From Fragum whitleyi (Eukaryota > Mollusca > Bivalvia > Cardiida > Cardiidae): a stretch of DNA of 64,000 nt. Numbering within the stretch: position 1 is the stretch's first letter; each line of letters begins with the position of its first letter. The DNA lies in NCBI GenBank assembly GCA_948146395.1, contig OX411544.1, positions 40,655,419-40,719,418 on the forward strand, read 5' to 3'. Positions 2,724 to 62,150 of this stretch are shown piece after piece. A program made the position numbers and the translations under genes. The notes beneath the pieces are model-generated. The model was given only the letters and a program-made list of their open reading frames with translations, was not told the DNA's origin and made no database searches.

Positions 2724-3550
2724 TTTTAGCTCACCTGAGCACACTGTGCTCCAGGTTAGCTATTAGGATCACCATGAGTCCGTCGTGCATCGTCTGTTGT
2801 CAACAATGCTAAAACTTCTTTTCTCCTGAACCTTTGGGCAGAATTCAATGAAACCTTGCCAGAATGTTCCTTTGGTGACCCTCTTTAAAAATTGTTCGCA
2901 AAATTTTGATTTGGCTGTAAATATGGGCGTGGCTTATGTTGAGCCTGAAATCTTTTAATAACATTTCCTCCTGAACCACAAACTTTCCTCCACAAAGTTT
3001 TTAGCGCACCTGAGCACAATGTGCTGAAGGTAAGCTATTAGGATCAGCAATGAGTCTGTTGTGCATCGTCTGTTGTCAACAACGTTAAAAACTTCTTCTC
3101 CTGAACCGTTTGGCCGATTTTTATAAAACCTTGCCAGAATGTTTCCTAGGTGACCCTTTTCAGAAATTCTTTGCAAAATTTTGATTGGCCCATAAATAAA
3201 GGCTTGGCAGGGCAGGGCTTATTTGAGCCTAAAATCTTTGAACAACATCTTCTCCTGAACCACTTCGCAGATTTCAATCATAGTGTTCCTTTGATGACCT
3301 TTTCAAATTATTTTTGAAAAATTTGATTTTCCAATAAATATAGCATGGCAGGGTGGGGCTTATTTTGAGCCTCCTCAGTAAAGAATTGGTGGACAGGGTC
3401 TATTTTTACATTAAATTCCTGGAATAACATCTTCTCTTCAACAATTAGGCAAATGTGAATGAAACTTTGTTAGAAAGTTTTTTGAATGGGTTCCACTGGA
3501 CCAATAAAATTCAGGTGAGCAGTCTAGGGCCCTTCTTGCCCTCTTGTTTT
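2724..3550 (+). mobile_element. HINE-like element, family A (copy 1, two overlapping 5' ends)
   Basis: Begins in a T run with AGCTCACCTGAGC and a hairpin (GAGCAC...GTGCT). The 3' side has the complementary TCAGGTGAGC (3511-3520), then hairpin AGGGC/GCCCT (3526-3542) and CTCTTGTTTT. A second 5' end at about 2998 shows that one copy has been inserted into or joined to another. The core repeat contains 'tctcctgaacca' and 'tttcaatgaaac' blocks also found in family B. Non-coding. Confidence 0.75.
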
Positions 3551-3771
3551 GTTATTGAAATAGTCAAATCTATAGTATACAGATATATCATGCTGTAGGC
3601 TTTCAAAGGAGTCATGCACTGTGTAATTGTTTGAGAAAATTTGAATTTGTGTTTGATACAGCTTTAAAAACTTGATGGTTAACTGAAGCTAGGAAGATTT
3701 ATGATTCTTGTCAAATGCATTATTCTCGATGAGTTATATATACCCAAGAAATTCCAATAACCCAAAATAAA

Positions 3772-3945
3772 ACAGACAAGAGTTGTTGATCTTGTTGTGC
3801 ATTGTACTGCGTCTTTATAGGATTTATCCACCTATGAAGTTACAAGTTGATAGCTGTTTTACTTTTGCAGATCAACTTCTGACAAAATCTTAGTCTTTAA
3901 AATTTCAAAGGGCAATAAATCTAAAATTATGCAAGAAAGAGTTTT
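3772..3945 (-). mobile_element. HINE-like family C fragment, left half (split by B1)
   Basis: The reverse complement matches the C core of 43.9-44.6 kb ('cagctatcaacttg', 'aggtggata', 'ttgccctttgaaattt'). It resumes at 4962 after the B1 element, so the two halves were one copy. Confidence 0.6.
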
Positions 3946-4961
3946 GAGCTCCGGTGGCTGAAAAGCCACTGGGGCTATTGTCATGGCGTTGTGTCCGTCG
4001 TGAGTCCATCCGAACGTCCATTTGTAAACTTTTTCTTTAAAAATCTTCTCCTCAAAAACTACTGGATGAATTTCAACCAAACTTCACAGGAATGATCCTT
4101 GGGTGACTCTCTTTCAAAGTTGTTCAAGAAATTTTGATCCAATGAAAAACATGGATGTAATGGGCATGGCTTATTTCCAAATATGGTAAAAAGTGACTTT
4201 TCTCAGATTCTAAATGATGGATACCAATAAAATTTTACATGAATGATCCTTGGGTGACCCTTTATTAGTCTACAAAAAGTTATTGTGATTGGATGGAAAA
4301 TATGGGCAGAGGTCATTTCTCTATATGTTATATAGTGGAAACTTTGAAATTCATTTTCTCAGAATGTAAGAGATGGATATCTATCAAATTTCACTAGAAT
4401 GATCCTTGAGTGACCCTTTATCACCAAAAATTATTGTGATCGGATGAAAAATTTGTATTTTATGGGCGGAGGTCATTTCTCTATATGTTATATAGTGGAA
4501 ACTTTGAAAAATCATTTTCTCAGAATCTAATTGTTTGATATCAACCAATTTTCACTTGAATGATCCTTGAGTGACTCTCTATCAGTCTACCAAAAATTAT
4601 AATGATTGGATGAAAAATGTGTTTTTTATGGGCGGAGGTCATTTCTCAAAATGTTATATAGTGGAAACTTTGAAAATCATTTTCTCAGAATGAAAGTGAT
4701 GGATATCAATCAAACATTTTTTTGTATGATCTTTGGGTGACCTATTATCATGCAGCCAAAAATGATTTTGATTGGATGAAAAACATGTCTTTTATGGGCG
4801 GAGGTCATTTCTATATATGTTATATAGATGAAACTTTGAAAATTATTTTCAACATCAGTAGAACCCATAATATCTAAAAAATCTAGTCAAAACTTTTATT
4901 TACTTTAACGAGAATTTCAAGCCTGTGGAGTGACTCAAGCCATTCATGGCTTTCTAGTTTT
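3946..4961 (+). mobile_element. HINE-like element, family B (copy 1), nested in a C element
   Basis: Starts after gtttt with GAGCTCCGGTGGCT, whose arm pairs with AGCCACTGG just downstream. The 3' side has AGCCTGTGGAGTG, a hairpin AAGCCAttcATGGCTT and then 'tctagtttt'. The core holds about four diverged units of roughly 170 bp with 'gggcggaggtcatttctc' and 'gaatgatccttgggtgaccc'. The GTCY tract is reduced to 'gtccgtcgtgagtccatcc'. Non-coding. Confidence 0.72.
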
Positions 4962-5115
4962 ATTCTTGTGCACTGCACTTCTCCTAAAGGAGATCTATCC
5001 ACTTTTGTTGAAGTTTCAAGCTGGTAGCTGTTAAAATTTTAGAAATATGCTCTAAGACCTAAGTTTACAAGGGGGCAATAACTCCAAATTTAGACAGGTA
5101 TGCTCAGGACATTTA
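4962..5115 (-). mobile_element. HINE-like family C fragment, right half
   Basis: Continues the C core interrupted by B1: 'cttgtgcactgcacttctcc', 'gatctatccac', 'gtttcaagctggtagctg', 'caataactccaaa', all in reverse orientation. Confidence 0.6.
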
Positions 5116-5307
5116 TACTGGCGGAAGGACTGACAAGAGACCATTACTAAATCCTCTTTGCAGAAACAACAGGGGTGGTGATTATCTTTGACTCATAATA
5201 TGAAGTTTACTAAGCATGTGCTTCCGGGGCTATAATCAGCACTAGGCTAGGGTTCTGAATGCCTTGCTCATACCAACATTACTTGTGCCAGGGTCAGGAT
5301 TTTAATT

Positions 5308-5530
5308 TTTTGTTTGAATGGAGTTCTACGCCGCTTTCAACAATCTTTCAGTTAAATCATGGCAAATGGAGCATGTAACAATTGATTCCTACTATAACTT
5401 TCACCAGTACTACCATAACACCCTTACCTAGCCTCCAACTGCTATCTCGCATAGGTCAACTATTATTGGTGAAAGACAATCAAACCTGGGACCTCCTGAC
5501 AGTCCGGTGTGCTACCAACTGTGATATGTC
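5308..5530 (-). mobile_element. tRNA-SINE, diverged
   Basis: The reverse complement has the main SINE order. On the + strand it reads the tail 'ggagttctacgccgctttca', then the body 'cctagcctccaactgctatc', and ends in a degraded tRNA head (ctgacagtccggtgtgctac...). Strongly diverged, hence old. Confidence 0.75.
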
Positions 5531-5575
5531 AGGATTTGAAATAACAACCTTCAATTCCTTTATGATCATAGTAGC

Positions 5576-6165
5576 CACCCTGACAACTTAGCCAAAGACG
5601 ACCTAATTTCTTGAATAGTAAGGCCTTGATAATGGACCTTGTCAAATGGCCTTCACCTTGACCTTCACTGATGCACATCGAAGCAGGAATCTTGACAGAT
5701 GGATTTGACCTTTTAGCATGACCTTGACACCTATAGATGTACATCACTGGATCTTTCATCATGCCAGTTATGAGACAGGGCATCTATGATATGCTTGAAT
5801 AAATATGAATAAACTGAACAATGAAAGGTTTTTGGTTATGTTCTTAAGAAGTTTGACCTTGACAGATGACCTTCTCCTTGTAACATGACCTTGACTTTGG
5901 AACCAGCAGATGCAGATCATTGAGATCTATCACCATGTCAAATATTAGCCTTGCATCTTTAAGTTTTTTGGTTAAGTTTTTGAGTTATCAACCTTGACAG
6001 ATGACCTTGACCTTGTCACATGACCTTGACTTTGGTACCAGCAGATGCAAATCATTGAGATCCTTATCATGCCAAATATGAGCCTTGTATGTTGAATAGG
6101 CTTGAAGATATTGCCAATGTTAAGCTTTTTGGTTAAATTTTGCAGATAGACGGACAACGGTAAAA
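5576..6165 (-). mobile_element. HINE-like element, family F (copy 3)
   Basis: The right end (its 5' side) contains cggacaacggtaaaacaata, complementary to the F start at 52.6 and 57.3 kb. The core repeats 'tgaccttgac' and 'atcatgcca' three to four times. These are the complement of the TCAAGGTCA-rich F core. The left end is degraded. Confidence 0.68.
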
Positions 6166-6748
6166 CAATATGCAATTTCTCATGTGCATGAGGCATTGGT
6201 CGGTCTAAACAACCACACAAATAAATCAGATTATTTGTTGACCGCCTGAGGAAGAGCTATAACCCTGTCTTTCTACATAGGGCTTGGGTCAGACCTTGTG
6301 GAAGCACTTACTAGCCAGAGGCTTTGCTTTGCATACATGGAATTGATAGAGAGTCAAGAACATTATCATTTCGATGGCTCCTTGCGAAAAAACTTGAAAC
6401 TTCCTATATGTTTATAGGGAGTTAATACGTTTTTTCGATAGGCTTTATGAAAATTAATACCATTTTCTCTGGGCAATAATCTTATTCATTTATGAAAACT
6501 CATATGTACTTTTTTGTTTATACATTTTAATTTCAATCCAAGATAAATGAACATTGGTAAAATTGGTATTGTGAAAATAATTCTTCCATGTAATTAGCTA
6601 TTACATTACCTAAAGGAAATGTTTTACTAGAAAAGATAATCAATTAAGAATGATAAATGAATAAATGCTAAAACAAACATTGCTTGTTTATTCAATATAA
6701 TTTCTGTGCTAAGAAAAATTCAATAAAATACCCCCCTTCTATTTTTAG
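6166..6748. other. Unassigned AT-rich sequence
   Basis: No repeat family or exon recognised; contains a short poorly conserved inverted repeat near 6395-6425. Confidence 0.3.
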
Positions 6749-6866
6749 CTTGGCTGTTTTCAAAGGAATTTTGTACAGCCCTGGTGTTGCTGTTGGAAGT
6801 TTCTTATTCTTTGGTGTGATTTGCATTATGAACAATACGATTCTTCATGAATGTTGGGCAGAATAA
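6749..6866 (+). CDS. Candidate terminal exon with a membrane-like segment (unidentified)
   Basis: A pyrimidine-rich acceptor (ccccccttctatttttag) is followed by 39 open codons ending in TAA (6864-6866). The peptide includes a hydrophobic stretch, SPGVAVGSFLFFGVICIM, then NNTILHECWAE, so it could be a last transmembrane helix with a short tail. Entry is phase 2, the same as the left-edge gene, so it could be an alternative last exon of that gene or belong to another. The stop overlaps an AATAAA. Chance open frame is possible. Confidence 0.3.
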
Positions 6867-7721
6867 ATTTCTCGTCTCAAGGATGATCCATATAGAAATT
6901 TGGAATCTTCTGTTTGAAACCATGGGAAAAAGGCCTTAATATGAATATCCTTGTTAGCGCTCTAAATTTTGTTCAAGTCTTTATACTAATTACAAATAAA
7001 ATTTATTGAACATATTAAGAAGATGGCAACCCAAAGAAAATTTCTGCCCAGTTTGAATGAAATTTGCCCATTGTTTTCTGAGATCTTGCATTTAGTTAAC
7101 CCCTTAGATGTAGTAGCTAACTAAAGTTATAGAGAAAGCACATGCCATGTTCCAAGAGATATCTTGAATAATAACTGAAAATGTTTGATAGGCTGCCAAC
7201 TCCAAGGCCTACATAATTACCAAATGTCAAAAACAACCAAGCTAAAAAGAATTGTACAAGTAAACCTCTTTCAACAATATTTCAGTTCTATAGTACAGCT
7301 ACCTATAATGTCCTGTTATTACTTACACCAGTTCAAACACATTATTCTAACTTCCAGCGTACCATTAGGGTTTGCTGCAAATTCAACTTTGTATGCAAAT
7401 TAGTTCTCTCGCAAACAGTTTGCTGCAAATTTTCAGCAAATATTTGGGAGAGGCAATATATTTTGGTAAGGGATGCTGTTGTCAGCTTAAGAAGGATTAA
7501 GGCAAATATCAAATTGAAATCAGCAGAATTCAGGATTCACTTTAGGGTTGTTAGTCTTGTGCTTTATTGATGGTGCTAACCAGACTTGGTGTTAATGTTA
7601 ACAGAAATGAAACCAGGTGGCAAATTGCCATAAGATATAGCCTTTCACACTGTTTGATGAAGAGTAGGACAGGGGATTTAAATTGAAGTCTTGAAATCAA
7701 CAAAGGCTAAAACTTGAAAAA
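6867..7721. other. Unassigned sequence
   Basis: AT-rich; a short direct repetition of 'ttgctgcaaatt' lies near 7370-7435. No gene, RNA or known repeat recognised. Confidence 0.3.
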
Positions 7722-8847
7722 CAAGGGGACCGTTGACCCTGGATCACTCACCTGAGATGAAAGCTCTATACCCTAGATCAGTTTAAGCAATCCCAGAAAA
7801 AAGAGATTTCACATATTTAATCATCCAGCTCTGTGAATTTAAACTCTTCAAAACTAATTGGGAGAATTAGGCAATATGATTTCTCATTTCAACCCTTCCT
7901 ACCTAATTGGGTTAAATTGGCAATTTGATTTCTATCATCTTATCTTTACCAAATAAAGGCTGTTGGAGCTCTGGTTGAGATGAAGAAATTTTGAAGATTT
8001 CTAAATTGATACCTGAGAACTACCCCCTCCCCTTATTATTCTAAACCTGTTGGCAAAAGAGACTTGATTATAGCTATCAAAATAAAGATCAATGAACTGA
8101 TGAATCATGCCAAATCTACAGGCTGTTGGGGACCTGGTTTAGAAAGAGAAGAATTTTGAAGATGTCTTATTTGGTCAGAGTCCTACCAACTCTTACCCGT
8201 TGCTCTGCCCCTGGTCGTAACCCTGTCGTGATTTTAGCTACTTGATAATTATGAGCTGATTATCCATGACAAATTTTAAGCCTGTAGGGGTCATGGTTCA
8301 GTAGAAGCAGATATCTTAAAGATTTCTAGTTTGATCCAACATGTTCCCCCTCCCCAAAATGCTCTGCCTGTCCAAAACTAATGATTCAAGCTCTTTTAAT
8401 AAAGGTTATTGAGCTGATGATCCATGCAAAATTTCAAGGCTGTTCAGCCTCTGGTTCATTAGAAGAAGTATTTGGAATTAGCTAATTTGATCAAAGTTCT
8501 ACCCCCTCCCCCCCCTGGTGCTCTGCCTCTGGTGGCCCAACATTAATGATTTTAGCTATTTTGATGAAGGTCTATGAGCTGATAATCTATACCAAATTGT
8601 AGAGCATCTGGTTCAGATCAAGATGAATTTTAAAGATTTTTTTTTAAAAAAATCACTTTTGTTGCCATGGCATAGTTTTCAACCAATTTTAATTCTTTTA
8701 GTTATTCTGGGGAACATTCCTTTGAAAGTTGGTGTAAATCGGCCTAGTAGTAAAGGAAGAGTTTTTGTTTAAATATTTTTGACAGACAACAGACGAACAG
8801 CGGGTGATCATAATAGCTTACATGAGCACTTTGTGCTCAGGTGAGCT
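7722..8847 (-). mobile_element. HINE-like element, family A (copy 2)
   Basis: Reads right to left. The 5' end is AGCTCACCTGAGC with its hairpin partner (8820-8847). The core is a tandem of about 170-200 bp units containing 'gagctgatgatccatgc' and 'ctccccctc' blocks. The 3' side near 7745 has CTCAGGTGAG, an imperfect hairpin (GGGACCGTTGACCCT on the + strand), and cttgtttttc. The outer arms match copy 1 while the core differs, so families share ends but not always cores. Confidence 0.72.
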
Positions 8848-9132
8848 GAAATGCTAGGTAGATTTATGATCCATTTGCACTGCACTCTAACCATGAGAAG
8901 AATATAATTGCCAGATTTTTTGTCAGGATGAAAGACTAATGGTCTGGACAGAGAAGTGGTCACCACCTGAAAGACACTGGATGCTACGGGTGATCACATT
9001 ATATGTCCCATCTTTCGTTGGGCATATAAAAATGTCCACAACAGCTGCCTCAAACACATCATAGCTATTTACACCTATAGAACTAACAAATATGAAAGTC
9101 CCAAAGATATCTGATTGGAAAAAGAGAACCAC
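8848..9132. other. Unassigned sequence
   Basis: Lies between a family A element and a family G element; nothing recognised. Confidence 0.3.
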
Positions 9133-9395
9133 CTACGGATGCCTACACTCGGCTTTTGAGTGCTGGATGGGGAAATAATTAAGTTGAAAAAGGGGCATTA
9201 TTTGCACAAAATGCATCTAGAGTTATTCCCCTTAAAAGTATAGTTTGATCTTTTGGTGGTGAACATGTGTACCAAGTTTCAAGTCAATACCTTCAGTAGA
9301 GCTAGAGATATCACAAAATTTCAAAGTTTTTGCACAACAACGACGCCCTAGACAACAACACCAAGGCAATAGCAATACCTCAGGTTTTCTCTGAA
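9133..9395 (-). mobile_element. Family G repeat (copy 1), possible HINE-like relative
   Basis: The reverse complement carries 'gacttgaaacttggtacaca', 'tgttcaccaccaaaagatca', 'gcaaataatgccccttt' and ends in CACTC aaaagcc GAGTG, a short hairpin. The same order occurs at 27990-28215 and 48919-49205, and in part at 19905-20030. In place of (GTCY)n the 5' part has GTCGTTGTTG-type repeats. Confidence 0.62.
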
Positions 9396-10247: not shown

Positions 10248-10527
10248 GTTTGTCTTGATGGGGTTTTACGACGCTTTTAACAAAATTTCAGTCATATTGC
10301 GGCTGCTGGAGCACCTAAAAATGGATTCCTGATATTTCTCACACTTGTACTACCATTACATCCTTTTCTAGCCTCCAGCTGCTATCACACAACAAAGGTC
10401 TACAATTATCAAACAATTGATGGTGATACAAACAGGTGGAAAGTGTAAGTGCTGTTGTTGGGGACCTAACCCAAGACCTCTAGTTTGACAGTCAGGTGCA
10501 CTAACAACTGCGCTATGATGGCTGCTA
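10248..10527 (-). mobile_element. tRNA-SINE, near full length, old
   Basis: The + strand reads 'ggggttttacgacgctttta', the 'cctagcctccagctgctatc' body, then 'gacagtcaggtgcactaaca' and 'ctgcgctatgatggc' (degraded tRNA head with A box). Several small insertions and substitutions from the family consensus. Confidence 0.82.
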
Positions 10528-10759
10528 GCAAAATTTCAACAATTGACCTTGAGCTTCAACTTTCAGCTAAACAAAAGTTTACAATATATCCGAAAGTTTC
10601 CGTTTCAATTAGCAAATCTTCTCATGACCGTGTTCTATTCGAGCTTTAACGGTATTTGTTCAAAATCTATTCATAAATGTTTAGATTCTAGTCTGGACAA
10701 AGTTGGAAGTGCAGACTCCTCATTCAACTACTTACCCAAAAATACCCATATATATAGAG

Positions 10760-15443: not shown

Positions 15444-15873
15444 TTTTTATCCCCGCCGTTCGGCGAAGGGGATATAGTGACGGTCTCCGTCCGTCTTTCC
15501 GTCATTTCGTTACTTAGTGTGTTCGGAGCATTTCTCCTAAAGTTTAAAAGCTACCAACTTGAAACTTTGTAGGTGGATAAATCTCATGGAGGAGAAATGC
15601 AGTGCACACAAACTACAACTCTTGCTTGTATAATTTTGGAGTTATTGCTCTTTGTTATTTATTTTGTCCGGTGCATATCTCTGAAAGTAATAAAAAGCTA
15701 CCAACTTGAAACTTTAAAGGTTGATAGATCTCATAGAGGAGAAGTGCAGTGTATAAGAACAGCAACGCTTGCTTGCATAATTTTGGATGCATTGTCCTTT
15801 GTTTTCTTAGGCTTCAGTTTACTATCAAGCTTTTATAGCGGGGGATGGCCATGTGCGACATGGCTCTTGTTTC
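15444..15873 (+). mobile_element. HINE-like element, family C (copy 1)
   Basis: T run, then ATCCCCGCCGttCGGCGaaGGGG (5' hairpin), 'ctccgtccgtctttccgtc' (GTCY tract), and two core units with 'ctaccaacttgaaacttt' and 'gatctcatggaggagaa'. Then CGGGGGAT (third arm, 15839-15846), a 7-bp hairpin GCCATGT/ACATGGC (15848-15864) and CTCTTGTTT. Complete structure; non-coding. Confidence 0.85.
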
Positions 15874-22050: not shown

Positions 22051-23153
22051 TAGTCCGTTTGACTTCTATATGGACCAACCTTTTCATCAACTACATAAAA
22101 TTGCGTTTGAAAGAAGGATTTGTATGTAGTAAAATCTTAATTTCAGCTTTATACCATTCCAAAAAATATTTTTATGCCCCCGATAGGGAGGCATCATAAA
22201 TTTGACTTGTCCGTCCGTCCGTCTGTCCGTCTGTCCGTCCGTCATTCCGTCCAAAACGTCTGTCCGTCCGTCATTCCGTCCAAAAACTTTAACATTGGCC
22301 ATAACTTCCTTATTTAAAATCAAAGCGGTGTCGGGGGCATTGTCATCTTACAGTGACAGCTCTTGTTTGAAAATAAATTGATTTCAAAATAATGATTTTG
22401 TCTATCTAGTTAATGTTAGTATTTTCGCATTTTCCGCTCTTAAACACGAGGGGTGAAGGAGGCTGTTTAATAGTAAGAAATTGTAAACATATATAGTAAT
22501 AACACGTGGTTTTATACTAAACATTTGACAGATGAAATGTCCATTATTCCTTATTTGGACATGGTAATTAGCATATCGACGGTCATGGCATCTTAAACTT
22601 AAATAGCACGTGATTTTTACCGTTATTACTCGCCTTCTCATCAAGTTTTCCTCGTGAAATTCCCATCTACTTCATTTAATAATGCTTTTTGATTGGTCTT
22701 TACATGTAAATATAGGGTTCATTTCAGAATGAATAAAAACAATAATCAATTATCTGGTCAAACAGTTTCGGAAAAAAGAAAATATACTCAGATTTGATAT
22801 CCAACAGTAGCAAAAATCTTCGACAAACATAATTATATTGAAATACTCGATTTTATACTAAAACAAGTCACTTAAAATCTTAAACTTTTGACTCGGCCCC
22901 TATGCAAATCAGTACTATTTTTAGTTGTACATTTCGCTGTTCCGTTTAATACAGTCACAAGTAGGTATGAAAGGCTGGAAGTTAACATGTAGACGGACGG
23001 ACAAAATCATTATTTTACATTAAAAAATTCTGAAAAACAAAATTCGTCATGGTATTAGCTGGAAAATATGATATGTCAAGAAAAATTTGCGTTTCATCAA
23101 TTAATTTGAGATTTTCGGCGAAATGTTGGTCCATATAGAAGTCAAACGGACTA
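22051..23153 (+). mobile_element. TIR element P (copy 1), TA duplication
   Basis: Terminal inverted repeats of at least 28 bp beginning TAGTCCGTTTGACTTCTATA, flanked by TA at 22049-22050 and 23154-23155, inserted in MITE M. A 2nd copy in reverse lies at 40550-43524. No transposase; non-autonomous. The TA duplication fits Tc1/mariner-like mobilisation, but PIF-like or other families are not excluded. HINE H1 is inserted near its left end. Confidence 0.82.
22171..22364 (+). mobile_element. HINE-like element, family H (copy 1)
   Basis: Minimal form: ATGCCCCCGAtaGGGaGGCAT hairpin, a (GTCY)n tract (ccgtccgtctgtccgtctg), one core ('aactttaacattggcc'), third arm TCGGGGGCAT (22331-22340), hairpin TGTCA/TGACA (22341-22358), CTCTTG. 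P copy 2 lacks it, so its edges are defined: it sits in a T5 run with no other duplication. Confidence 0.88.
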
Positions 23154-23450: not shown

Positions 23451-23641
23451 TTTATGCCCCCGATAGGGAGGCATAATAAATTTGACTTGTCCGTCCGTCC
23501 GTCTGTCCGTCTGTCCGTCCGTCATTCCGTCCGTCTGTCCGTCCGTCATTCCGTCCAAAAACTTTAACATTGGCCATAACTTCCTTATTACTATCAAAGC
23601 GGTGTCGGGGGCATTGTCATCTTACAGTGACAGCTCTTGTT
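23451..23641 (+). mobile_element. HINE-like element, family H (copy 2)
   Basis: Nearly identical to H1 except for the microsatellite length and a small indel before 'tatcaaagcggtgtcggggg'. Same hairpins and CTCTTGTT end. High similarity implies recent activity. Confidence 0.87.
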
Positions 23642-26178: not shown

Positions 26179-26194
26179 CGTATGTATGTATGTG

Positions 26195-34243: not shown

Positions 34244-35591
34244 TTTTTATACGCCGCCGGAGGCGGACGTATATTGGCGTCATCTTCTCCGTCCGTCCGT
34301 CCGTCCATCCGTCCGTCCGTCCACTTTTCTTGTCAACGCAACTCCTCCTAAACTACTGGCTGGATCTTCTTGAAACTTGGTCAATGTTATCACCTCAATT
34401 GGTAGATGTGCATGAAGGAAGGATTTTACGGTTCGTTGATTTTTGCCTGAGTTATGCCCCTTGATAACTTAGTCTCTGGGTCCAATTTTCTTGTCAACGC
34501 AACTCCTCCTAAGTTTCTGGCTGGATCTTCTTGAAACTTGGTCAATATTATCACCTCAATTGGTAGATGTGCATGAAGGAAGGATTTTATGGTTCTTTGA
34601 TTTTTGCCTGAGTTATGCCCCTTGATAACTTAGTCTCTGGGTCCAATTTTCTTGTCAACGCAACTCCTCCTAAGTTTCTGGCTGGATCTTCTTGAAACTT
34701 GGTCAATATTATCACCTTAATTGGTAGATGCGCATGAAGGAAGGATTTTATGGTTCGTTGATTTTTGCCTGAGTTATGCCCCTTGATAACTTAGTCTCTG
34801 GGTCCAATTTTCTTGTCTCGTCGCGATATAACTGAGAGATTGTTGAAAGCGACGTAAAACCCCAATTCAAATCAAACCAATTTTCTTGTCAATGCAACTC
34901 CTTCTAAGTTTCTGGCTGGATCTTCTTGAAACTTGGTCAATGTTATCACCTCAATTGGTAGATGTGCATGAAGGAAGGATTTTATGGTTCTTTGATTTTT
35001 GCCTGAGTTATGCCCCTTAAAAACTTAGTCTCTGGGGCTTATTGCCTCAGATATGCCCCCTTAAAAACTTAGTCTCTGGGGCTTATTGAAATTGCAGCCT
35101 TGTGAATGCAACTCTTCCTAAGTTTCTGGCTGGTTCTAAATGAAACTTGGTGGATGTTATAACCGAAATTGGTAGATGAGCATGAAGTAAGGATTTTATG
35201 GTTCATTAATTTTACCCTAAATTATGCCCCCTTAAAACTGAGTATCTAGGGCTTATTGAAATAGCAGCCTTTTGAACACAACTCCTCCTTACTTTTTGTC
35301 TTTATTTAAATGAAACTTGGTCAATGTCATCACCATAATTTGTAGATGTACATGGATCAAGGATTTTATGGCTCATTTATTTCCCTGAATTATGCCCCCT
35401 TAAAACTGAGTGCCTGGGGCTTATTGAAATTGCTGCCTTGTGAAGGCAACTCCTCCTAACTTTTTGTCTTGATTTCAATGAAACTTGGTCATTTTCAATT
35501 TGGTTCTGTCAAAATAAGTAGTGTCTATAATTATTTCTGTGAAACAGCAGCAAAGTGGCGGCGTATTTTGTGACGATGGCACTCTTGTTTT
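34244..35591 (+). mobile_element. HINE-like element, family E
   Basis: T run, ATACGCCGCCGGAGGCGGaCGTAT hairpin, (GTCC)n tract at 34290-34322, then about eight core units with 'gcaactcctcctaa', 'ttcttgaaacttggtcaat' and 'ttggtagatgtgcatgaagg'. Third arm GGCGGCGTAT (35557-35566), then 'gacgatggcactcttgtttt'. The first units are nearly identical and later ones diverged. A SINE stub sits at 34818. Confidence 0.85.
34818..34876 (+). mobile_element. 59-bp SINE 3' stub with a 14-bp duplication
   Basis: Only the SINE tail (tcgcgatataactgagagat, tgttgaaagcgacgtaaaac) inserted in a HINE E unit. CCAATTTTCTTGTC is duplicated at 34804-34817 and 34877-34890. The classic result of an aborted target-primed reverse transcription. 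Confidence 0.92.
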
Positions 35592-40550: not shown

Positions 40551-43524
40551 AATATCCGATATGGGCCAATATTTCGCCGAAAATCTCAGTTTCGAGTTAT
40601 TGAAACGTATTTTTTTCTTGTCATATCATATTTTCCATCTAATACCATGACGAATTCTGTTTTTCAGATTTTTAGCTCCACTGGCCGAAGGCCAGCGAGC
40701 TATTGTCATGGCGAGGTGTCCGTCGTGCGTCCGTGCGTCCGTGCGTGCGTGCGTGCGTAAACTTTTCTTTAAACATCTTCTCCTCCTAAACCAATGGGTG
40801 GATTTTGACGAAACTTGGCCAGAATATTCCTTGGGTGACCCTCTTTTAAAGTTGTTCAAGAAATTTGGATTGACCCCCAAATATGGGCGTGGCAGGGCGG
40901 GGCTTATTTTGACCCCAAAATCTTTGAACAACATCTCCTCCTAAACCATTGGGCCAATTTCAATGAAACTTTACCAGAATGTTCCTTGGGTGACCCTCTT
41001 TGAAAGTTGTTCAAGAAATTTGGATTGACCCCCAAATATGGGCGTGGCAGGGTGGGGCTTATTTTGACCCCGAAATCTTTGAACGACATCTCCTCCCAAA
41101 CCATTGGGCCAATTTCAATGAAACTTTACCAGAATGTTCCTTGGGTGACCCTCTTCTAAAGTTGTTCAAGAAATTTGGATTGACCCCCAAATATGGGCGT
41201 GGCAGGGCCGGGCTTATTTTGACCCCAAAATCTTTGAACGACATCTCCTCCTTAACCATTGGGCCAATTTCAATGAAACTTTACCAGAATGTTCCTTGGG
41301 TGACCCTCTTCTAAAGTTGTTCAAGAAATTTGGATTGACCCCCAAATATGGGCGTGGCAGGGCGGGGCTTATTTTGACCCCGAAATCTTTGAATGACATC
41401 TCCTCCTAAACCATTGGGCCAATTTCAATGAAACTTTACCAGAATGTTCCTTGGGTGACCCTCTTCTAAAGTTGTTCAAGAAATTTGGATTGACCCCCAA
41501 ATATGGGCGTGGCAGGGCGGGGCTTATTTTGACCCCGAAATCTTTGAATGACATCTCCTCCTAAACCATAGGGCCAATTTCAATGAAACTTTACCAGAAT
41601 GTTCCTTGGGTGACCCTCTTCTAAAGTTGTTCAAAAAATTTGGATTGACCCCCAAATATGGGCATGGCAGGGCGGGGCTTATTTTGACCCCGAAATCTTT
41701 GAACGACATCTCCTCCCAAACCATTGGGCCAATTTCAATGAAACTTTACCAGAATGTTCCTTGGGTGACCCTCTTCTAAAGTTGTTCAAGAAATTTGGAT
41801 TGATCCCCAAATATGGGTGTGGCAGGGCGGGGCTTATTTTGACCCCGAAATCTTTGAACGACATCTCCTCCTTAACCATTGGGCCAATTTCAATGAAACT
41901 TTACCAGAATGTTCCTTGGGTGACCCTCTTCTAAAGTTGTTCAAGAAATTTGGATTGACCCCCAAATATGGGCGTGGCAGGGCGGGGCTTATTTTGACCC
42001 CGAAATCTTTGAATGACATCTCCTCCTAAACCATTGGGCCAATTTCAATGAAACTTTACCAGAATGTTCCTTGGGTGACCCTCTTCTAAAGTTGTTCAAG
42101 AAATTTGGATTGACCCCCAAATATGGGCGTGGCAGGGCGGGGCTTATTTTGACCCCAAAATCTTTGAATGACATCTCCTCCTAAACCATAGGGCCAATTT
42201 CAATGAAACTTTACCAGAATGTTCCTTGGGTGACCCTCTTCTAAAGTTGTTCAAAAAATTTGGATTGACCCCCAAATATGGGCATGGCAGAGCGGGGCTT
42301 ATTTTGACCCCGAAATCTTTGAACGACATCTCCTCCCAAACCATTGGGCCAATTTCAATGAAACTTTACCAGAATGTTCCTTGGGTGACCCTCTTCTAGA
42401 GTTGTTCAAGAAATTTGGATTGATCCCCAAATATGGGTGTGGCAGGGCGGGGCTTATTTTGACCCCGAAATCTTTGAACGACATCTCCTCCTTAACCATT
42501 GGGCCAATTTCAATGAAACTTTACCAGAATGTTCCTTGGGTGACCCTCTTCTAAAGTTGTTCAAGAAATTTGGATTGACCCCCAAATTCAATCTACAGCT
42601 AAATAGTTTACTTTCTTATGAGTTAATTAAGTTCATTCCTTCATGGGTCAGTTTCAACCTAGAAAAAGTCTGAATTCCTTCTGAATGTTGTTCACTTTCA
42701 TTACCTTCTATTTTCAATATCATTCTTTCAAATCTTGAGATTTTTAAGCCAGTGGAGCGATACAGGCCCTCTTGGGCCTCTTGTTTGGTGTAAAATAATG
42801 ATATTGTCCGTCCGCATACATGTTAACTTAGAGCCTTTCCTACCTCACTGTGTCCGTATTAACCGTAACAGCGAATTGTATATCCATAAATGGCTTTGAT
42901 TTGCATAGGGGCAAAAGTGTAATCTTACGTGAGTCGTTTTAGTATAAAATCGACTATTTTTATAAAATAAAGTTTGTCGAAAAATTTACTTTCTTTGGAT
43001 ATCAAATCTGAATATATTGTCTCTTTATTCAAAATCGTTTAAACAGATAATTGATAATTGTTTTTTATATATTCTGAGATGAACCCCATATCCACACATT
43101 TAGACCAATCAAAAAGTATTATTTAACGAAGTCGTTGGGAATTTCTCGAGGAAAACATGATAAGAAGGCTAGTAATAACGGTACAAATCGTCGATATACT
43201 AATGAGCATGTCCAAATAAGGAATAATGGACCTTTCTCCTTTCAAATGTTTAGTATGAAACCACGTGTATTTACAATATGTTTACAAGGTCTTACTATTT
43301 CAACAGCCCTCATCACCCCTCGTGTTTAAAAGCGGAAAATGTGAAAATATTAACATTAACTAGATAGACAAAATCATTATTTTGAAATCATTTTATTTTC
43401 AAAAATTATTTTTTGGAATGGTACTAAGCTGAAAGTAAGATTTTACCACATACAAATCCTTCATTCAAACGCAATTTTATGTAATTGATGAAAAGGTTGG
43501 TCCATATAGAAGTCAAACGGACTA
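40550..43524 (-). mobile_element. TIR element P (copy 2), carrying HINE B2
   Basis: Reverse of copy 1. The right TIR is intact (43495-43524, flanked by TA) and the left end is decayed ('tatgggccaatatttcgccg'). Segments 40561-40668 and 42787-43524 align to copy 1 across the B2 insertion. The site where copy 1 carries HINE H1 is unoccupied here (43400-43416). Confidence 0.82.
40669..42786 (+). mobile_element. HINE-like element, family B (copy 2), long 155-bp array
   Basis: 5' AGCTCCACTGGCCgaaGGCCAGcGAGCT hairpin; 'gtgcgtccgtgcgtgcgtgc' microsatellite; about 12 core units of 155 bp; third arm AGCCAGTGGAGCG (42747-42759); hairpin AGGCCC/GGGCCT (42764-42779); CTCTTGTTT. Units carry 'cttccttgggtgaccctctt'-like and 'gggcgtggcagggcggggct' blocks. 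Open frames of 60-66 codons recur every 155 bp on both strands; the period is not a multiple of three, so they are not one gene. Confidence 0.92.
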
Positions 43525-43891: not shown

Positions 43892-44666
43892 TTTTTATCC
43901 CCCGCCGTTTTCGGCGAGGGGATATAGTAATGCTCTCCGTCCGTCATTCCGTCATTCCGTCCTTCCGAGGTTCCGTCACTAAACTTGTCCGGAGCATATT
44001 TCCTAAAGTATAATAGCTATCAACTTGAAACGTTATGGGTGGATAGATCTCATGGAGGTTTTGGAGTTATTGCCCTTTGTTATTTCTAAGACTTAGATTT
44101 TGTCCGGAGCATATCTCCTAAAGTATAAAAGCAATCAACTTGAAACTTTATGGGTGGATAGATCTCATGGAGGAGAAGTGCAGTGCAGAAGAACTACAAA
44201 TCTTGCTTGCATAATTTTGGAGTTATTGCCCTATGTTTTTTTAAGACTTAAGATTTTGTCCGGAGCATATCTCCTAAAGTATAATAGCTATCAACTTGAA
44301 ACTTTATGGGTGGCTAAATCTCATGGAGGAGAAGTGCAGTGCACAAGAACAACAACTCTTGCTTGCATAATTTTGGAGTTATTGCCCTTTGTTATTTTTA
44401 AGACTTAGATTTTGTCCGGAGCATATCTCCTAAAGTATAATAGCTATCAACTTTAAACTCTATATATTGGGTTGAAAGATCTCATGGAAGAGGAGTGCAG
44501 TGCACAAGAACTATAACTCTGGCTTGCATAATTTTGGAATTATTGCCCTTTGTTATTTTAAAGACTTAGATTTTGTAGGGGCTTAATTACTTAAAGTAGA
44601 ACCCTTAATCTATTAGGCTTCAAACTTTCTCGGCGGGAGATGGCCATGTCCGACATGGCTCTTGTT
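43892..44666 (+). mobile_element. HINE-like element, family C (copy 2)
   Basis: ATCCCCCGCCGttttCGGCGaGGGG hairpin, GTCY tract (gtccgtcattccgtcattcc), about four units of 160 bp ('agctatcaacttgaaacttt', 'ggagaagtgcagtgcacaag'), third arm CGGCGGGAGAT, hairpin GCCATGT/ACATGGC (44643-44659), CTCTTGTTC. Same hairpin sequence as C1. Confidence 0.87.
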
Positions 44667-49652: not shown

Positions 49653-49995
49653 TTTAGCTCCACTGGCCGAAAGGCCAGCGGGCTATTGTCATAGCGGGGT
49701 GTCCGTCGTTCGTGCGTCCTTGCGTGCGTCCGTCTGTCCGTAAATTTTTACTTCTTCTCTTTAAGTAATGGATGGATTTCAAATTTCACAGGAATGTTCC
49801 TTGGCTAATCCTCTATCAGATTCCTTCAAGAATTTTAATTGGTTGAAAATCATGGCTGTGGTTGGCGTTGCTAATTTCCATGTATGTTAAAGGTGGCTTT
49901 TCTCAGAAACTAATCGATGGATATAAACCAAACTTCACATGAATCATCCTTGTATGACCCTCTATCAGTCTACAAAAATTATTGTGAACAGAACA
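49653..49995 (+). mobile_element. HINE-like element, family B (copy 3, 3' truncated)
   Basis: AGCTCCACTGGCCgaaaGGCCAGcGGGCT hairpin, 'gtgcgtccttgcgtgcgtcc' tract and about one and a half core units; ends without the third arm or 3' hairpin. Confidence 0.78.
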
Positions 49996-51102: not shown

Positions 51103-52128
51103 TTAGTCCCCCACCGGTTACCGGTTGGGGAAATAAAGGTTTGCTCGATTCCGTCTGTCCGTCCGTCCGTCCGTCCGTCACGCTTTTGTCCGGGCTATAT
51201 CTTTTAAACCATATGTGCTAGCAACTTCAAACTTTGTACACTTATAGATCTCATTGAGGAGAAGTGTCATGTTCAAGATCCATAACTCTGCCACACCCAC
51301 TTTTTGAGTTATTGCCCTTTGTTGTTTTTAGCCTTACATTCTTGTCCGCATCATATCTCCTAAACTATAAGTGCTAGCAACTTCAAACTTTGTACACTTA
51401 TAGATCTTATTGAGGACAAGTGTCATGTTTAAGAACTATTATTCTTAAGAACTGTTACACCCACTTTTTGAGTTCTTGCCCTTTGTTGTTTTTACCTTTA
51501 CATTTTTGTCCGGAACATATCTTCTAAATCATAAGTGCTAGAAACTTCAAACTTGCTACACTTATAGATATCATTGAGGACAAGTGTCATGTACAAGAAC
51601 TGTCACTCTGCCATGTCTTCTTTTTGAGTTAATGCCCTTTTTTGTTTCTATCCTTACATTTTTGTCTCGTACTTATCTCCTAAACCATAAGCCCTAGCAA
51701 CTTGAAACTTTGTACACTGGTAGATCTCATTGAGAAGAAGTGTAATGCACAAGAACTGTTACTCTGCCACATCCACTTTTTTAGTTATTGTCCGTTGTTG
51801 TTTTTTATCCTGACATTTTTTACCGGACCATATCTCCTGAGCCATCAGTGCTAGCAACTTCAAACTTGGTACACTTATAGATCTCATTGAGGACAAGTGG
51901 CATGTACAAGAATCATTCTTCTCTGCCCACTTTTGGAATTTTTCTCATTGGTTGTTTTTACTCTTATATTTTTGTTTGGGACATTTTTTCAAAACCTAAT
52001 GTGCAAGCAACTTCAAATTTTGTATACAGTTATAGATCTAGTAAGTAGGAGATATATTAAAAGAAAGGATTTTTTGTTATCCGGTGGGGGACTCCTGTAT
52101 TGCATCGCAATACGACATGCACTTGTTC
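51103..52128 (+). mobile_element. HINE-like element, family D
   Basis: AGTCCCCCACCGGTtACCGGTtGGGG hairpin, 'gtctgtccgtccgtccgtcc' tract, about five units of 165 bp ('gtgctagcaacttcaaactt', 'cacttatagatctcattgag'), third arm CCGGTGGGGGACT (52081-52093), 7-bp hairpin GTATTGC/GCAATAC (52097-52113), then 'cacttgttc'. Complete; units diverge towards the 3' end. Confidence 0.87.
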
Positions 52129-52613: not shown

Positions 52614-53165
52614 TTTTTATGCCCCCGTATAGAAAGATCGGGGGCATATTGTTTTACCGTTGTCCGCCTGTTGTCTGTCTGTCCGTCCGTCTGTCTGTCT
52701 GTCTGCTGCAAAAGTTAACCAAAAAACTTAACATTGCCTATATATTCAAGCCTACTCAAGATACAAGCGTGGATTCGATCCCCGCCGGCGGCAAATATCC
52801 TTTCCGACGTTTTTCTTTCATCAATGGGTAGATAATCGTAAACCTATGTGAAATAGCAGTCGGAGGCTAGGAAAGGGTGTAATGGTAGTACAGGTGAAAG
52901 AAATACCAGGAATCCATTGTTAGGTGCTCCGGCCGCCGCGATATAACTGCAAGATTGTTGAAAGCGGCGTTAAACCCATTCAAAAAAACAAACAAGATAC
53001 AAGGCTCATGTTTGGCATGATGATAGATCTCAATGAACCGCATCTGCTTATACCAAGGTCATGTGACAAGGTCAAGGTCATCTGTCAAGGTCAAATAACT
53101 AAAAAACTTAACCAAAAAACTTAACATTGCCAATATCTTCAAGCATATTCAAGATAAAATGCTAA
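52614..53165 (+). mobile_element. HINE-like element, family F (copy 1), split by a SINE
   Basis: T run, ATGCCCCCGtatagaaagatCGGGGGCAT hairpin, 'gtccgtccgtctgtctgtct' tract, core 'aacttaacattgcc' and 'caagatacaaggctcatg', 'tcaaggtcatctgtcaaggt'. The 3' end is missing. Confidence 0.8.
52768..52992 (+). mobile_element. tRNA-SINE in HINE F1, 11-bp duplication
   Basis: Head reduced to the B-box half (ggattcgatccccgccggcg); body and tail complete (cccattcaaaaaaacaaa). CAAGATACAAG at 52757-52767 and 52993-53003; the joined flanks recreate the F core. Confidence 0.93.
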
Positions 53166-57265: not shown

Positions 57266-57984
57266 TAGGTATCGAAAGATCGGGGGCATATTGTTTTACC
57301 GTTGTCCGTTTGTCTATCCGTCCGTCCGTCTGTCTGTCTGTTTGCAAAATTTAACCAAAAAACTTTGCATTGCCAATATCTTCAAGCCTATTCAAGATAC
57401 AAGGCTCATATTTGGCATGATGATAGCTCTCAATGATCCGCATCCGCTGGTACCAAAGTCAAGGTCATGTGACAAGGTCAAGGTCATCTATCAAGGTCAA
57501 ATAACTAAAAAACTAAACTAAAAAACTTGATATTGCCAATATCTTCAAGCCTATTCAAGATTTAAGGCTCGTAATTGGCATGATGGTAGATCTTAATGAT
57601 CCGCATCCGCTGGTTCCAAAGTCAAGGTCATTTGACAAGGTCAAGGTCATCTATCAAGTAAAATTTCTCAAAAACTTAACCTGGAAACTTAACATTGCCA
57701 ATGTGCTCAAGCCTATTCAAGATACAAGGCTCATATTTGGCATGATGATAGATCTCAATGATTCGCATCTGCTGGTTCTTAAGTCAAGGTCATCTGTCAA
57801 GGTCAAATAACTCAAAAACTTAACCAAAAAACTTAAATTGTTCAGTTTATTGAAGCTTACTATAGAGACCCTGTCTCATAATTGGCATGATGAAAGATAT
57901 GAGTGATGTATCAAGGTCAAGGTCATGCTAAAAGGTCAAGGTCATCTGTCAAGGTCAAACTTTGAAAAAAATGATGTTACGGGA

Positions 57985-58014
<30 letters not shown>
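57266..58014 (+). mobile_element. HINE-like element, family F (copy 2)
   Basis: The 5' arm is partly lost ('atcgaaagatcgggggcata'); tract 'ccgtccgtccgtctgtctgt'; four core units with 'ttcaagcctattcaagatac', 'atttggcatgatgatag' and repeated TCAAGGTCA; third arm TACGGGAGCAT (57978-57988), hairpin GTGTTT/AAACAC (57991-58005), CATCTTGTTTT. Confidence 0.85.
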
Positions 58015-59560: not shown

Positions 59561-59628
59561 GGCTTTTGTTCGCACCCCGCAATCTCGTCGCAGAACCTGG
59601 TTCTTCTAACCATGACTTCACTTTTCAA

Positions 59629-59822
59629 TCATAACGTTTCATCTAAGCAACCACTTGTCCATCCTCAAGTTCTAAGACTATCATTGCCCATTGTGTAAAA
59701 CAAATGAGGCCTATCACAATGACTTTTGACAAGTGTCCGACGGTTTGGTTAGCCGGCTTACGAACCCACGAACGCGAGTTTGGGAGTAAGACAAATTACC
59801 AACAGAGCTAATGAACTCGCGG
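59629..59822 (-). mobile_element. Second tRNA-SINE type (copy B)
   Basis: The reverse complement has 'tagctctgttggtaatttgt' (A-box-like) and 'gtgggttcgtaagccgg' (B-box-like), then 'caaaagtcattgtgatagg', 'ctcatttgt' and 'gaggatggacaagtgg'. Intact at the site where copy A carries MITE N. Confidence 0.66.
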
Positions 59823-59829
59823 CTTGACG

Positions 59830-62150
59830 TTTTTAGCTCTACTGGACTCAATCCAGCGGAGCTATTGTCATGGTCTGGTGTCCGCCATGAGTGCATGGGT
59901 CCGTCCGTCCATCTTTTAACTTTTTCTCTAAACATCTTCTTCTCTGAAACCACTGGGCTAATTTCAATGAAACTTTACCAGAATGTTCCTTGGGTGACCC
60001 TTTTCAAAAATTGTTCATGAAAATTTGATTGGCCTATAAATATGGCTGTGGCAGGGCGGGGCTTATTTTGAGCCCAAAATCTTTGAACAACGTATCATCC
60101 TGAACCACTGGGCCAATTTCAATGAAACTTTACCAGAATGTTCCTTTGGTTGGCCTTTTCAAAAATTGTTCATGAAAATTTGATTGGCCCATAAATATAG
60201 GCGTGGCAGGTAGGGGCTTTTTTTGAGCCCGAAATCTTTGAACAACATCTACTCCTGAACAACTGGGCCAATTTCAATGTAACTTTACCAGAATGTTCCT
60301 TGGGTGACCCTTTTCTAAAATTCATGAAAATTTGATTGGCTATAAATATGGCTGTGGAAGGGCAGGGCTTATTTTGAGCCCAAAATCATTGAAAAACATA
60401 TCCTCCTGAACCACTGGGCCAATTTCAATGAAACTTTACCAGAATGCTCCTTGTGTTGCCCTTTTCAAAAATTGTTCATGAAAATTTGATTGGCTATAAA
60501 AAGGCTGTGGAAGGGCGGGGCTCATTTTGAGCCCAAAATCATTGAACAACATATCCTCCTGAACAACTGGGCCAATTTCAATGAAACTTTACCAGAATGC
60601 TCCTTGGGTTGCCCTTTTCAAAAATTGTTCATGAAAATTTGATTGGCCCATAAATATAGGCGTGGCAGGGCGGGGCTTTTTTTTTGAGCCCGAAATCTTT
60701 GATTAACATCTACTCCTGAACCACAGGGCCGATTTCAATGCAACTTTACCGGAATGTTCCTTGGGTGACCCTTTTCTAAAATTGTTCATGAAAATTTGAT
60801 TGGCTATAAATATGGCTGTGGAAGGGCAGGGCTTATTTTGAGCCCAAAATCATTGAATAACATATCCTCCTGAACCACTGGGCCAATTTCAATGAAACTT
60901 TACCAGAATGCTCCTTGGGTTGCCTTTTCAAAAATTGTTCATGAAAATTTGATTGGCCCATAAATATGGGTGTGGCAGGGCGGGGCTTTTTTTGAGCCCG
61001 AAATCTTTGAACAACATCTACTCCTGAACCACAGGGCCGATTTCAATGAAACTTTACCAGAATGTTCCTAGGGTGACCCTTTTCAAAAATTTTTCATGAA
61101 TTGGCCCATAAATATAGGCGTGGCAGGAGGGGGCTTAACTTGAGCCCGAATTTTTTTAATTACATATACTCCTAAGCCTCTGAGATATCTATGAAACTTT
61201 ACCAGAATGTTCCTTGGACGGCCCTTTTCAAATGTTCGGCCGCCGTCATAGTGCAGTTGGATAGTGCGTCGGACTGTCAATCTAGAGGTCCCGGGTTCGA
61301 TCCCCGACGGCGGCACTCATTTATTCCGACTAGTTGTCTCACCAATGGGTTGATAATCGTAGACCTATGCGAGATAGCAGCTGGAGGCTAGAAAAGGATG
61401 AGATAATTGTACTGGTGAGAGAAATACCAGGAATCCATTGTTAGGTGCCCAAGCCGCGGCTCTATAACTGAAAAAATGTTGAAAGCGGCGTAAAACTCAA
61501 TTCAATAAATCAGTTTTCAAATATTGTTCATGAAATTTTGATTGGCAAATTGAATTGGGCGTGGCAGGGCGGAGCTTATTTTGAGGCCGAAATCCTTGAA
61601 CAACATCTCCTGAACCACTGGGCCAATTTCATTGAAACTTTACCTGGATATTCCTTGGGTGCCCCTTTTTAAAAATTGTTCATGAAAAATTGATAGGCCC
61701 ATAAATATAGGCGTGGCAGGGCGGGGCTTATTTTGAGCCCAAAATCTTTGAACAATATCTTCTCCTAAACCTGGGCTAATTTCAATGAAACTTTACCCAG
61801 AATGTTCCTTAGGTGACCCTTTTCAACAATTGTTCATGAAATTTTGTTTGGCCCATAAATATGGGCGCGGCAGGGCGGGGCTTATTTAGAGCCCGAAATC
61901 TTTGAAAGTTATCTCCTGAACCACTGGGCCAATTTCATTGATACTTTACCAGAATGTTCCTCTGATGAACGTTTTTAAAAAATTGTTCGCAAAATTGTGT
62001 TTGGCCCATAAATATGGGCGTGGCAGGTTGGGGCTTGAGTTCCTTCTGAATGATGGTGACTTGTATTACCTTCTATTTTCACTATCTCACTTTCAAATTT
62101 TGATATGTTGGAACCACTGGAGCCATACAGGCCCTCGGGGCCTCTTGTTT
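59830..62150 (+). mobile_element. HINE-like element, family B (copy 4), long
   Basis: AGCTCTACTGGactcaaTCCAGcGGAGCT hairpin, 'gggtccgtccgtccatc' tract, about 13 core units of 140-160 bp ('ttaccagaatgttccttggg', 'gggcgtggcagggcggggct'), third-arm region GAACCACTGGAGCC (62111-62124), hairpin AGGCCC/GGGCCT (62129-62143), CTCTTGTTTT. A SINE is inserted at 61234. Units are more diverged than in copy 2. Confidence 0.88.
61234..61513 (+). mobile_element. tRNA-SINE, full length, in HINE B4
   Basis: Head from 61239 (gccgccgtcatagtgcagtt) with GTC in the loop and B-box gggttcgatcccc; body; tail 'caattcaataaatcag'. TTTTCAAAT at 61225-61233 and 61514-61522. Confidence 0.93.

Follow-up and report, generated by a model that had tools for sequence, protein, structure and literature searches.

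Three-armed ends and an interrupted 5' hairpin in Helentron-type elements of the bivalve Fragum whitleyi

The window analysed here, a 64-kb stretch of DNA from the bivalve Fragum whitleyi (assembly GCA_948146395.1, contig OX411544.1, positions 40,655,419 to 40,719,418 of the forward strand) within a genome of 1.22 Gb in 38 contigs, carries several families of repeated elements that start with a 5' hairpin, the outer arm of which is also complementary to a third segment near the 3' end. The questions raised by this locus are why one segment should stay matched to two partners in families whose arms differ, and by which machinery such elements are moved. The answer towards which we lean is that the repeats are short gene-less derivatives of Helentrons, termed Helentron-associated interspersed elements (HINEs), which are moved by the Rep-helicase-endonuclease of intact Helentrons, and that their copying ends when the third arm replaces the pairing of the 5' hairpin. 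Two observations stand at the centre of this answer: the arms keep complementarity across all three segments while changing in sequence, and the ends of families A and B recur on intact Helentrons of the same genome.

The window was compared with ten random 20-kb stretches of the genome, and the elements were found to read in a fixed order, namely T run, arm1, loop, arm2, GTCY microsatellite, in several elements a tandem core of ~150-170 bp units, arm3, a short 3' palindrome and CTTGTT. The ends are constituted by T^A...CTTGTT together with the 5' hairpin; arm1 lies directly after the T run, and the spacing from arm3 to CTTGTT amounts to 17-28 bases in ten window elements (Table 1). The same plan is present across the ten random stretches pooled, a complete element not being found in every stretch. 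These stretches yielded the families I, J and K beyond A-F and H, in addition to A2, a relative of A, while a family designated as D2 was found alongside a fetched D copy (L003). In the latter case (L003:1501-2600), the D2 element begins right at the CTTGTT end of the D element (CTTGTT followed by AGTCCCC), which amounts to one element having inserted at the 3' end of a related one. A possible additional family was noticed on the minus strand of the joined stretch L011+L012 at 6749, with arms ATACCCCCCACC... and an interrupted hairpin, its 3' end not being found there.

An earlier note, made from the letters of the window alone, had quoted one pair of arms for each of seven families (A-F and H) and had taken each pair as the two ends of one element. 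All seven quoted pairs are present in the window as exact strings, and in six of the seven they do delimit a single element. For F, the quoted pair (52619 with 57978) seems to take one arm from each of two copies, because the second copy (arm2 at 57281) is devoid of arm1 and none of four exact spellings of the F 3' arm occurs between 52640 and 57282; alternatively, it may represent one 5.4-kb element that contains a nested copy. The quoted C copy (C1, 15449) pairs imperfectly, and a better C copy (43897-44666) was absent from the quotes. As for the heptamer CTTGTTT reported to follow each 3' hairpin, CTTGTT is found in each and the final T is not always there.

To describe the arms, twelve family representatives (A1, A2, B, C, D, D2, E, F, H, I, J and K) were used, one well-kept copy each, picked by the authors. 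The arms of A, A2, B, I and J start with AGCTC, with a T in place of the first A in the A2 copy used, and those of C, D, D2, E, F, H and K start with AT or AG followed by C-rich sequence. Arms of different families match at a mean of 6.2 of 10 positions in the same group and 3.3 of 10 in the other group, and the description of the families as sequence-unrelated was therefore overstated. The claim that third-arm complementarity is conserved across families holds up well: the pairing of each arm1 with its own arm3 covers 114 of 120 positions, a value reached by none of 100,000 within-group shuffles, and that of the outer five bases of arm1 with arm2 covers 58 of 60, reached by 76 of 100,000. Moreover, joint changes were observed between families with similar arms, where C/G/G in arm1/arm2/arm3 is replaced by T/A/A at position 8 from D to D2 and at position 5 from H to K.

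A further test was carried out on the window and the ten stretches with ends chosen without regard to complementarity, the 5' ends by a T run and a GTC microsatellite and the 3' ends by a palindrome and CTTGTT. A score of at least 7 was obtained for 15 of 83 same-strand pairs in 5'-to-3' order within 6 kb, against 2 of 49 wrongly ordered pairs and 152 of 3269 pairs from other loci or strands, where the 15 include a few pairs across neighbouring copies and the 3269 include same-family pairs.

The search for autonomous partners was conducted with the Pfam domain Helitron_like_N, by which 150 of 260 candidate places in the genome were scored and two sets, termed X and Y, were followed. Many of the matches are single open frames of 1200 to 2628 amino acids, many of 2400-2600 amino acids being open among the 150 scored places, and several sets share both length and score, a recurrence that suggests recent activity. 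The X copy C12 possesses a single open frame of 2469 amino acids with the Pfam domains Herpes_teg_N, DUF6570, Helitron_like_N and PIF1, together with an Exo_endo_phos match of 20.4 that lies below the Pfam cut-off of 24.5. The element extends over X 1320-18061 (16.7 kb), the frame being flanked by ends of family B, of which the 5' end lies 5.4 kb upstream and the 3' end 3.9 kb downstream; these ends share arms, palindrome and CTTGTT with window B (40674..42785). Identity of the latter to X amounts to 90.2% across the 1349 bp that follow the 5' end, including microsatellite and core repeats, and to 97.6% across the last 42 bp. The full 1501-bp X query was recovered at 99-100% in seven copies including C12; among five copies read, the 3' terminus (CTTGTT) is the same in all five (4/4 beyond C12), with differing flanks, and the 5' terminus (T run) is the same in four (3/4 beyond C12).

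Two other placements of the X ends were rejected. The first divergence between X12 and X16 was discarded as the 3' end, as the C16 copy holds an insertion, and the A element at X 5574-6814 was discarded as the 5' end, the sequence upstream of it being common to both copies and the B ends being found further out. That A element is a complete family A HINE (L031:74-1314) situated just upstream of the Rep-helicase frame in both C12 and C16, and thus one Helentron carries the HINE of another family. In addition, a dispersed repeat of ~210 bp, 74-86% similar, links X 5144-5359 with 12 window stretches longer than 150 bp on both strands (for example 14126-14326, 19690-19902 and 61306-61511), and at C14:3400283-3413473 (G000) two X copies stand in the same orientation, too close for both to be full length and separate, perhaps in a tandem or nested arrangement.

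The second partner, Y, bears the ends of family A. Its open frame encompasses 2508 amino acids in the copy C7; the domains, scanned in the C1 copy, are the same as those of X, with Exo_endo_phos above the Pfam cut-off (29.6 against 24.5), and the same copy contains the Helentron-type S in VEFQQRGSPHIH, a motif taken from the accessible part of a published Helentron survey (PMC4067079). The proteins of X and Y are 38% identical in the N-terminal part and 44% in the C-terminal part. The Y element measures 15.6 kb and runs from a family A 5' end (Y 1450) to a family A 3' end (Y 17015-17020). On the 3' side, the nine other copies listed stop at query bases 1518 to 1534, CTTGTT ending at 1519, which places all of them within 15 bases of its end and six of the nine exactly there; on the 5' side, five of seven near-identical copies start at 1439 to 1445, within 6 bases of the start of the T run (1445) that precedes AGCTCACC. 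Among the matches listed, at least 22 copies at 90-91% have only ~1445-3090 of Y in common, and they are regarded as candidate HINE derivatives, judging from this shared portion. The Helentron Rep/helicase with these ends, for which the earlier note had proposed to search, was accordingly found for A and B, with ends alike in five copies of X read and nine further copies of Y aligned, and it is of the rolling-circle rather than the cut-and-paste type. Its assignment of the repeats to Helentron-associated non-autonomous elements was thereby strengthened.

Insertion sites point in the same direction. Paralogous empty sites were recognized for B, C2 (the better C copy) and H1 (22174..22367), where the element has been gained with no target duplication beyond T's, the extra T's being assignable neither to the element nor to the target. 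The empty counterpart of B is window 23136-22905 and that of H1 is window 43521-43283, both on the minus strand; for C2, 11 host-repeat alignments in the random stretches cross the insertion point, and four of these read as empty sites. T-rich sites without duplication fit the TT insertion published for Helentrons (PMC4067079). In other respects, too, the anatomy is that of Helentrons and HINEs, with subterminal inverted repeats of which the 5' copy stands at the very end and the 3' copy further in, a short 3' palindrome and, for A and B, a partner with common ends that encodes Rep, PIF1 and a C-terminal apurinic/apyrimidinic (AP) endonuclease. The arrangement of Helitron2 is likewise recovered in the 12 representatives, where the 5' hairpin uses the 5' asymmetric terminal inverted repeat (ATIR) and the 3' ATIR lies upstream of the 3' hairpin. 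A canonical Helitron1, with 5'-TC, CTRR-3' and no 5' hairpin, was rejected on account of the T^A...CTTGTT ends and the 5' hairpin.

The 5' hairpin displays a further regularity. When one well-kept copy per family was folded with DNA parameters, the cost of closing the long loop being left out of the energies, the hairpin was found to be interrupted mid-stem in all 12 representatives: by one unpaired base on the 3' side in seven (A1, A2, C, D, E, H and K), by one on the 5' side in D2 and F, and by an internal loop in B, I and J. The longest arm1:arm3 helix comprises 7 to 14 bases, exceeds every hairpin helix in 11 of the 12 (in A2 it is equal) and extends past the hairpin interruption in 11 of the 12. 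Its predicted energy, under the same omission, is lower than that of the hairpin in 11 of the 12, as exemplified by the hairpin and arm1:arm3 values of H (-6.5/-15.0), K (-6.3/-16.9) and E (-9.0/-15.5 kcal/mol). Interrupted 5' hairpins were also seen in 35 of 37 copies passing one filter, with varying sequence at the interruption; the 37 copies are no random sample, since the D copies were fetched by similarity and those of X and Y via Rep genes. The 3' hairpins are uninterrupted in nine of the 12 representatives. According to these folding predictions, the bias introduced by the interruption would favour end-to-end pairing, as is required by a model put forward in 2013.

That model belongs to Helitron2 (Bao and Jurka 2013, PMC3627910), in which, as far as the accessible part of the account goes, the 5' ATIR and a downstream partner form the 5' hairpin, the 3' ATIR lies upstream of the 3' hairpin at ~20-30 bp from the end, two Culex elements show compensatory mutations, and insertion after TTTT is given for Chlamydomonas members. 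It was suggested there that pairing between the 5' and 3' ATIRs destroys the 5' hairpin and fixes the endpoint of replication. The thought of the earlier note that a conserved switch between hairpin and panhandle may be undescribed therefore falls, because both alternative pairings and the endpoint idea had been in print since that account, the plan of the ends being published as well. A limited literature search turned up no experimental test of the 2013 proposal. The elements of F. whitleyi resemble Helitron2 in the 5' hairpin and the placement of the 3' ATIR, and the arm3 spacing here is close to that of Helitron2. Several differences can be named: compensation was given for two related elements there and covers 12 families of one genome here, the A and B proteins carry the endonuclease domain typical of Helentrons, and the regular mid-stem interruption is absent from the accessible Helitron2 account. 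No paper on Helentron bulges was retrieved in a literature search from whose reach most subscription journals were excluded, so that the interruption may still have been reported.

Similar systems have been portrayed under other names, and the likenesses drawn here extend as far as the accessible portions of the sources. In the Helentron/HINE survey (Thomas et al. 2014, PMC4067079), sub-terminal inverted repeats (subTIRs) of 11-15 bp, a 3' palindrome, TT insertion and a Rep/PIF1/AP-endonuclease protein are described, HINEs are regarded as deletion derivatives of Helentrons, and anatomy and partners are given in mite, mosquito and flies. The elements studied here agree in subTIRs, 3' palindrome, T-site insertion, protein domains and HINE derivation; the arm3 spacing falls below the 38-60 bp reported in mites, and the present Helentrons have the GTCY microsatellite and core repeats of 155-170 bp at their own 5' ends, along with a herpes-tegument-like protease domain that is known for Helentrons (PMC9741609). 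DINE-1/INE-1 (Yang and Barbash 2008, PMC2374699) features a subTIR, an adjacent partial or interrupted inverted repeat, a GTCY microsatellite, central repeats and a 3' stem-loop; it is an insect system of homologous elements in 12 species, and the interruption was noted in the part of the text available and not taken there as functional. The layout of Cg_HINE/pearl of bivalves (Vojvoda Zeljko et al. 2020, PMC7492417), comprising a 5' subTIR, a complementary inverted repeat, a GTCY microsatellite, a satellite-like tandem core, a 3' subTIR with palindrome and oligo-T sites, is the same as the one found here; no autonomous Helentron could be related to the oyster Cg_HINEs according to that source, whereas two families have one in F. 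whitleyi. FoHeli of Fusarium (PMC5148889) is alike in its asymmetric inverted repeats and end hairpins, and its joined ends suggest a circle; the two 5' hairpin stems quoted there are without interruption, unlike those of the present elements. Against this background, the additions made here are element members, two autonomous partners and the regular interruption.

How the ends might operate can be outlined as follows. Rep would read the interrupted hairpin on single-stranded DNA, as its HUH relatives do, and nick at T^A, after which the helicase would peel off the displaced strand. Once arm3 emerges free, it could invade the weaker hairpin and displace arm2 from arm1, and the resulting panhandle might keep the 5' end close to both the 3' palindrome and the CTTG^T site, so that the second cut and the joining could follow. 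A bolder version, which is advanced tentatively and may well prove wrong, is that Helentron ends constitute a one-way DNA strand-exchange switch, in which the 5' hairpin is built to lose: a break kept in place rather than in sequence would turn it into a landing site for Rep, and arm3, being matched to arm1 instead of arm2, could take its place as soon as the 3' end is unwound. If true, the switch would link the recognition of the ends to the stop of replication with no need for a protein terminator, and the arm families would amount to separate, orthogonal versions of it. For canonical Helitrons, the 3' hairpin is considered as the terminator and circles with joined ends as intermediates (PMC5876387); the exchange proposed here would add end pairing to this scheme.

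The main rival holds that the arms are three copies of one double-stranded Rep binding site, a 5' pair in facing orientation plus a single 3' site, which co-evolve with Rep while the pairing of the arms stays idle. We consider it unlikely, and still the strongest of the alternatives, as complementarity is inverted repetition too, and the arms of A and B differ, as do the proteins of their partners. What it does not predict is a break in arm2 in all 12 representatives while the arm1:arm3 helix runs past it in 11; besides, the inner hairpin stem beyond the shared site is also self-complementary. Less probable again is the notion that the interruption serves only the recognition of a single-stranded hairpin by Rep, arm3 being a second recognition site and no exchange taking place. 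It draws on bacterial HUH enzymes, for which the accessible part of PMC8266576 indicates that E. coli TnpA-REP requires an unpaired place in the stem, that TnpA-REP and the IS608/ISDra2 transposases touch unpaired stem bases, and that what counts in the E. coli repetitive extragenic palindromes (REP) seems to be the unpaired state of these bases, not their sequence; in the present elements the interruption is likewise retained while its sequence varies. This notion leaves unexplained why the arm1:arm3 helix of 7 to 14 bases passes the outer hairpin stem in 11 of the 12.

Two other explanations carry very little probability. Cut-and-paste miniature inverted-repeat transposable elements (MITEs) with subterminal inverted repeats would be a natural suspicion, DINE-1 and pearl having formerly been classed so (PMC2374699, PMC7492417), and were rejected: Rep and PIF1 helicase domains are present in the proteins of the A and B partners and no DDE-type partner was found for these two families, while the three empty sites of B, C2 and H1 show no target duplication beyond T's. 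That the complementarity arose by chance in C-rich or T-rich sequence is scarcely credible. Short arms do match often in long windows, as was seen in a laxer design in which, upstream of every 3' end, the reverse complement of arm3 was sought behind a T run: at scores of 7, 8, 9, 10 and 11, 70, 46, 24, 12 and 5 of 96 were obtained against 64, 30, 12, 8 and 4 in one control and 68, 38, 18, 10 and 9 in the other, so that this design was abandoned, because its controls were near the test, for the one with ends chosen without complementarity. The outcome of the latter, the cross-family permutations and the termini common to many copies all speak against chance.

Several points weigh against the reading of the repeats as HINEs whose copying ends by exchange of the hairpin for end-to-end pairing. 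Co-changing complementary arms would also be expected from three double-stranded sites bound by Rep, and the nick sites, the panhandle and the order of events are predictions. The 12 representatives are not 12 independent events, because well-kept copies were picked and two related arm groups cover them, and autonomous partners were found for only two of these 12 families; no D copies were seen next to Rep genes by eye, in a search that was not systematic. The arm3 of C carries one mismatch, outside its longest helix with arm1, and B2 has two arm1:arm3 mismatches. With respect to the hairpin, the predicted energies exclude what it would cost to close a loop spanning 0.2 to 17 kb, and for family A the two states are near equal (-15.0 and -15.9 for A1, -12.5 and -12.4 for A2); uninterrupted hairpins occur in the D copy of L003 and in window F (52619), and also at window 3946, outside the filter, if G-T pairs count, while the 3' hairpins of E, H and I are interrupted or weak as well. 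Regarding the termini, two copies of Y, C8 and C1, have their start within the element (at 1508 and 2003 of L043), and the 5' end of the X copy C8 (L045) was not found at the predicted place.

How Helitron-like transposons stop copying bears on the frequency of gene capture and on the spread of satellite-like repeats. With at least 12 families that differ in their arms, and with near-identical autonomous copies in two sets whose frames are open and whose termini are known, a test of the 2013 proposal has therefore become practical. Moreover, X and Y supply, for two families, the link from satellite-carrying HINE to autonomous Helentron that the oyster study lacked, as far as its accessible text goes (PMC7492417).

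Table 1. Elements and element ends in the window, with positions counted from its first base.
Feature	Position (strand)	Parts	Remark
Family A element (HINE)	2728..3548 (+)	arm1 2728-2742; arm2 2746-2761; arm3 3511-3520; 3' palindrome 3526-3542; CTTGTT 3543-3548	ends of the same kind as autonomous Helentron Y
B-like 5' end	3946..4025 (+)		hairpin without interruption if G-T pairs count
Family C copy 1	15449..15871 (+)	arm1 15449-15458; arm2 15461-15473; arm3 15838-15846; palindrome 15848-15864; CTTGTT 15866-15871	
Family H copy 1	22174..22367 (+)	arm1 22174-22183; arm2 22186-22194 with bulged A; arm3 22331-22340; 3' hairpin; CTTGTT 22362-22367	
Family H copy 2	23454..23641 (+)	arm1 23454-23463; arm2 23466-23474; arm3 23605-23614; CTTGTT 23636-23641	
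Family E element	34249..35589 (+)	arm1 34249-34258; arm2 34262-34272 with bulged A; core repeats; arm3 35557-35566; CTTGTT 35584-35589	
Family B element (HINE)	40674..42785 (+)	arm1 40674-40686; arm2 40690-40701; 155-bp core repeats 40779-42587; arm3 42748-42759; palindrome 42764-42779; CTTGTT 42780-42785	
Family C copy 2	43897..44666 (+)	arm1 43897-43907; arm2 43912-43923 with bulged A; arm3 44631-44641; palindrome 44643-44659; CTTGTT 44661-44666	better kept
B 5' end	49656..49730 (+)	arm1; arm2; microsatellite	3' partner not found
Family D element	51105..52127 (+)	arm1 51105-51117; arm2 51121-51134 (decayed); core repeats 51184-52039; arm3 52081-52093; palindrome 52097-52113; CTTGTT 52122-52127	
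Family F 5' end, copy 1	52619..52705 (+)	arm1 52619-52627; arm2 52639-52647; GTCY microsatellite	own 3' end not found
Family F copy 2	57281..58013 (+)	arm2 57281-57289; core repeats; arm3 57978-57988; palindrome; CTTGTT 58008-58013	arm1 lost
Second B element (B2)	59835..62149 (+)	arm1 59835-59846; arm2 59852-59863; arm3 62114-62124; palindrome 62129-62143; CTTGTT 62144-62149	two mismatches of arm3 to arm1

Apart from the elements listed in Table 1, the window contains a (GTAT)n microsatellite of ~47 units at 26180-26368 and a long inverted duplication at 26835-32928, of which five listed arm pairs are 89-93% complementary and one is 75% complementary. Reading frames inside this duplication suggest one fragment of a Tc1/mariner-type transposase per arm, and SVNTVGRRLRERGVVFRR in these frames is what we take to be a Tc1-like sequence.

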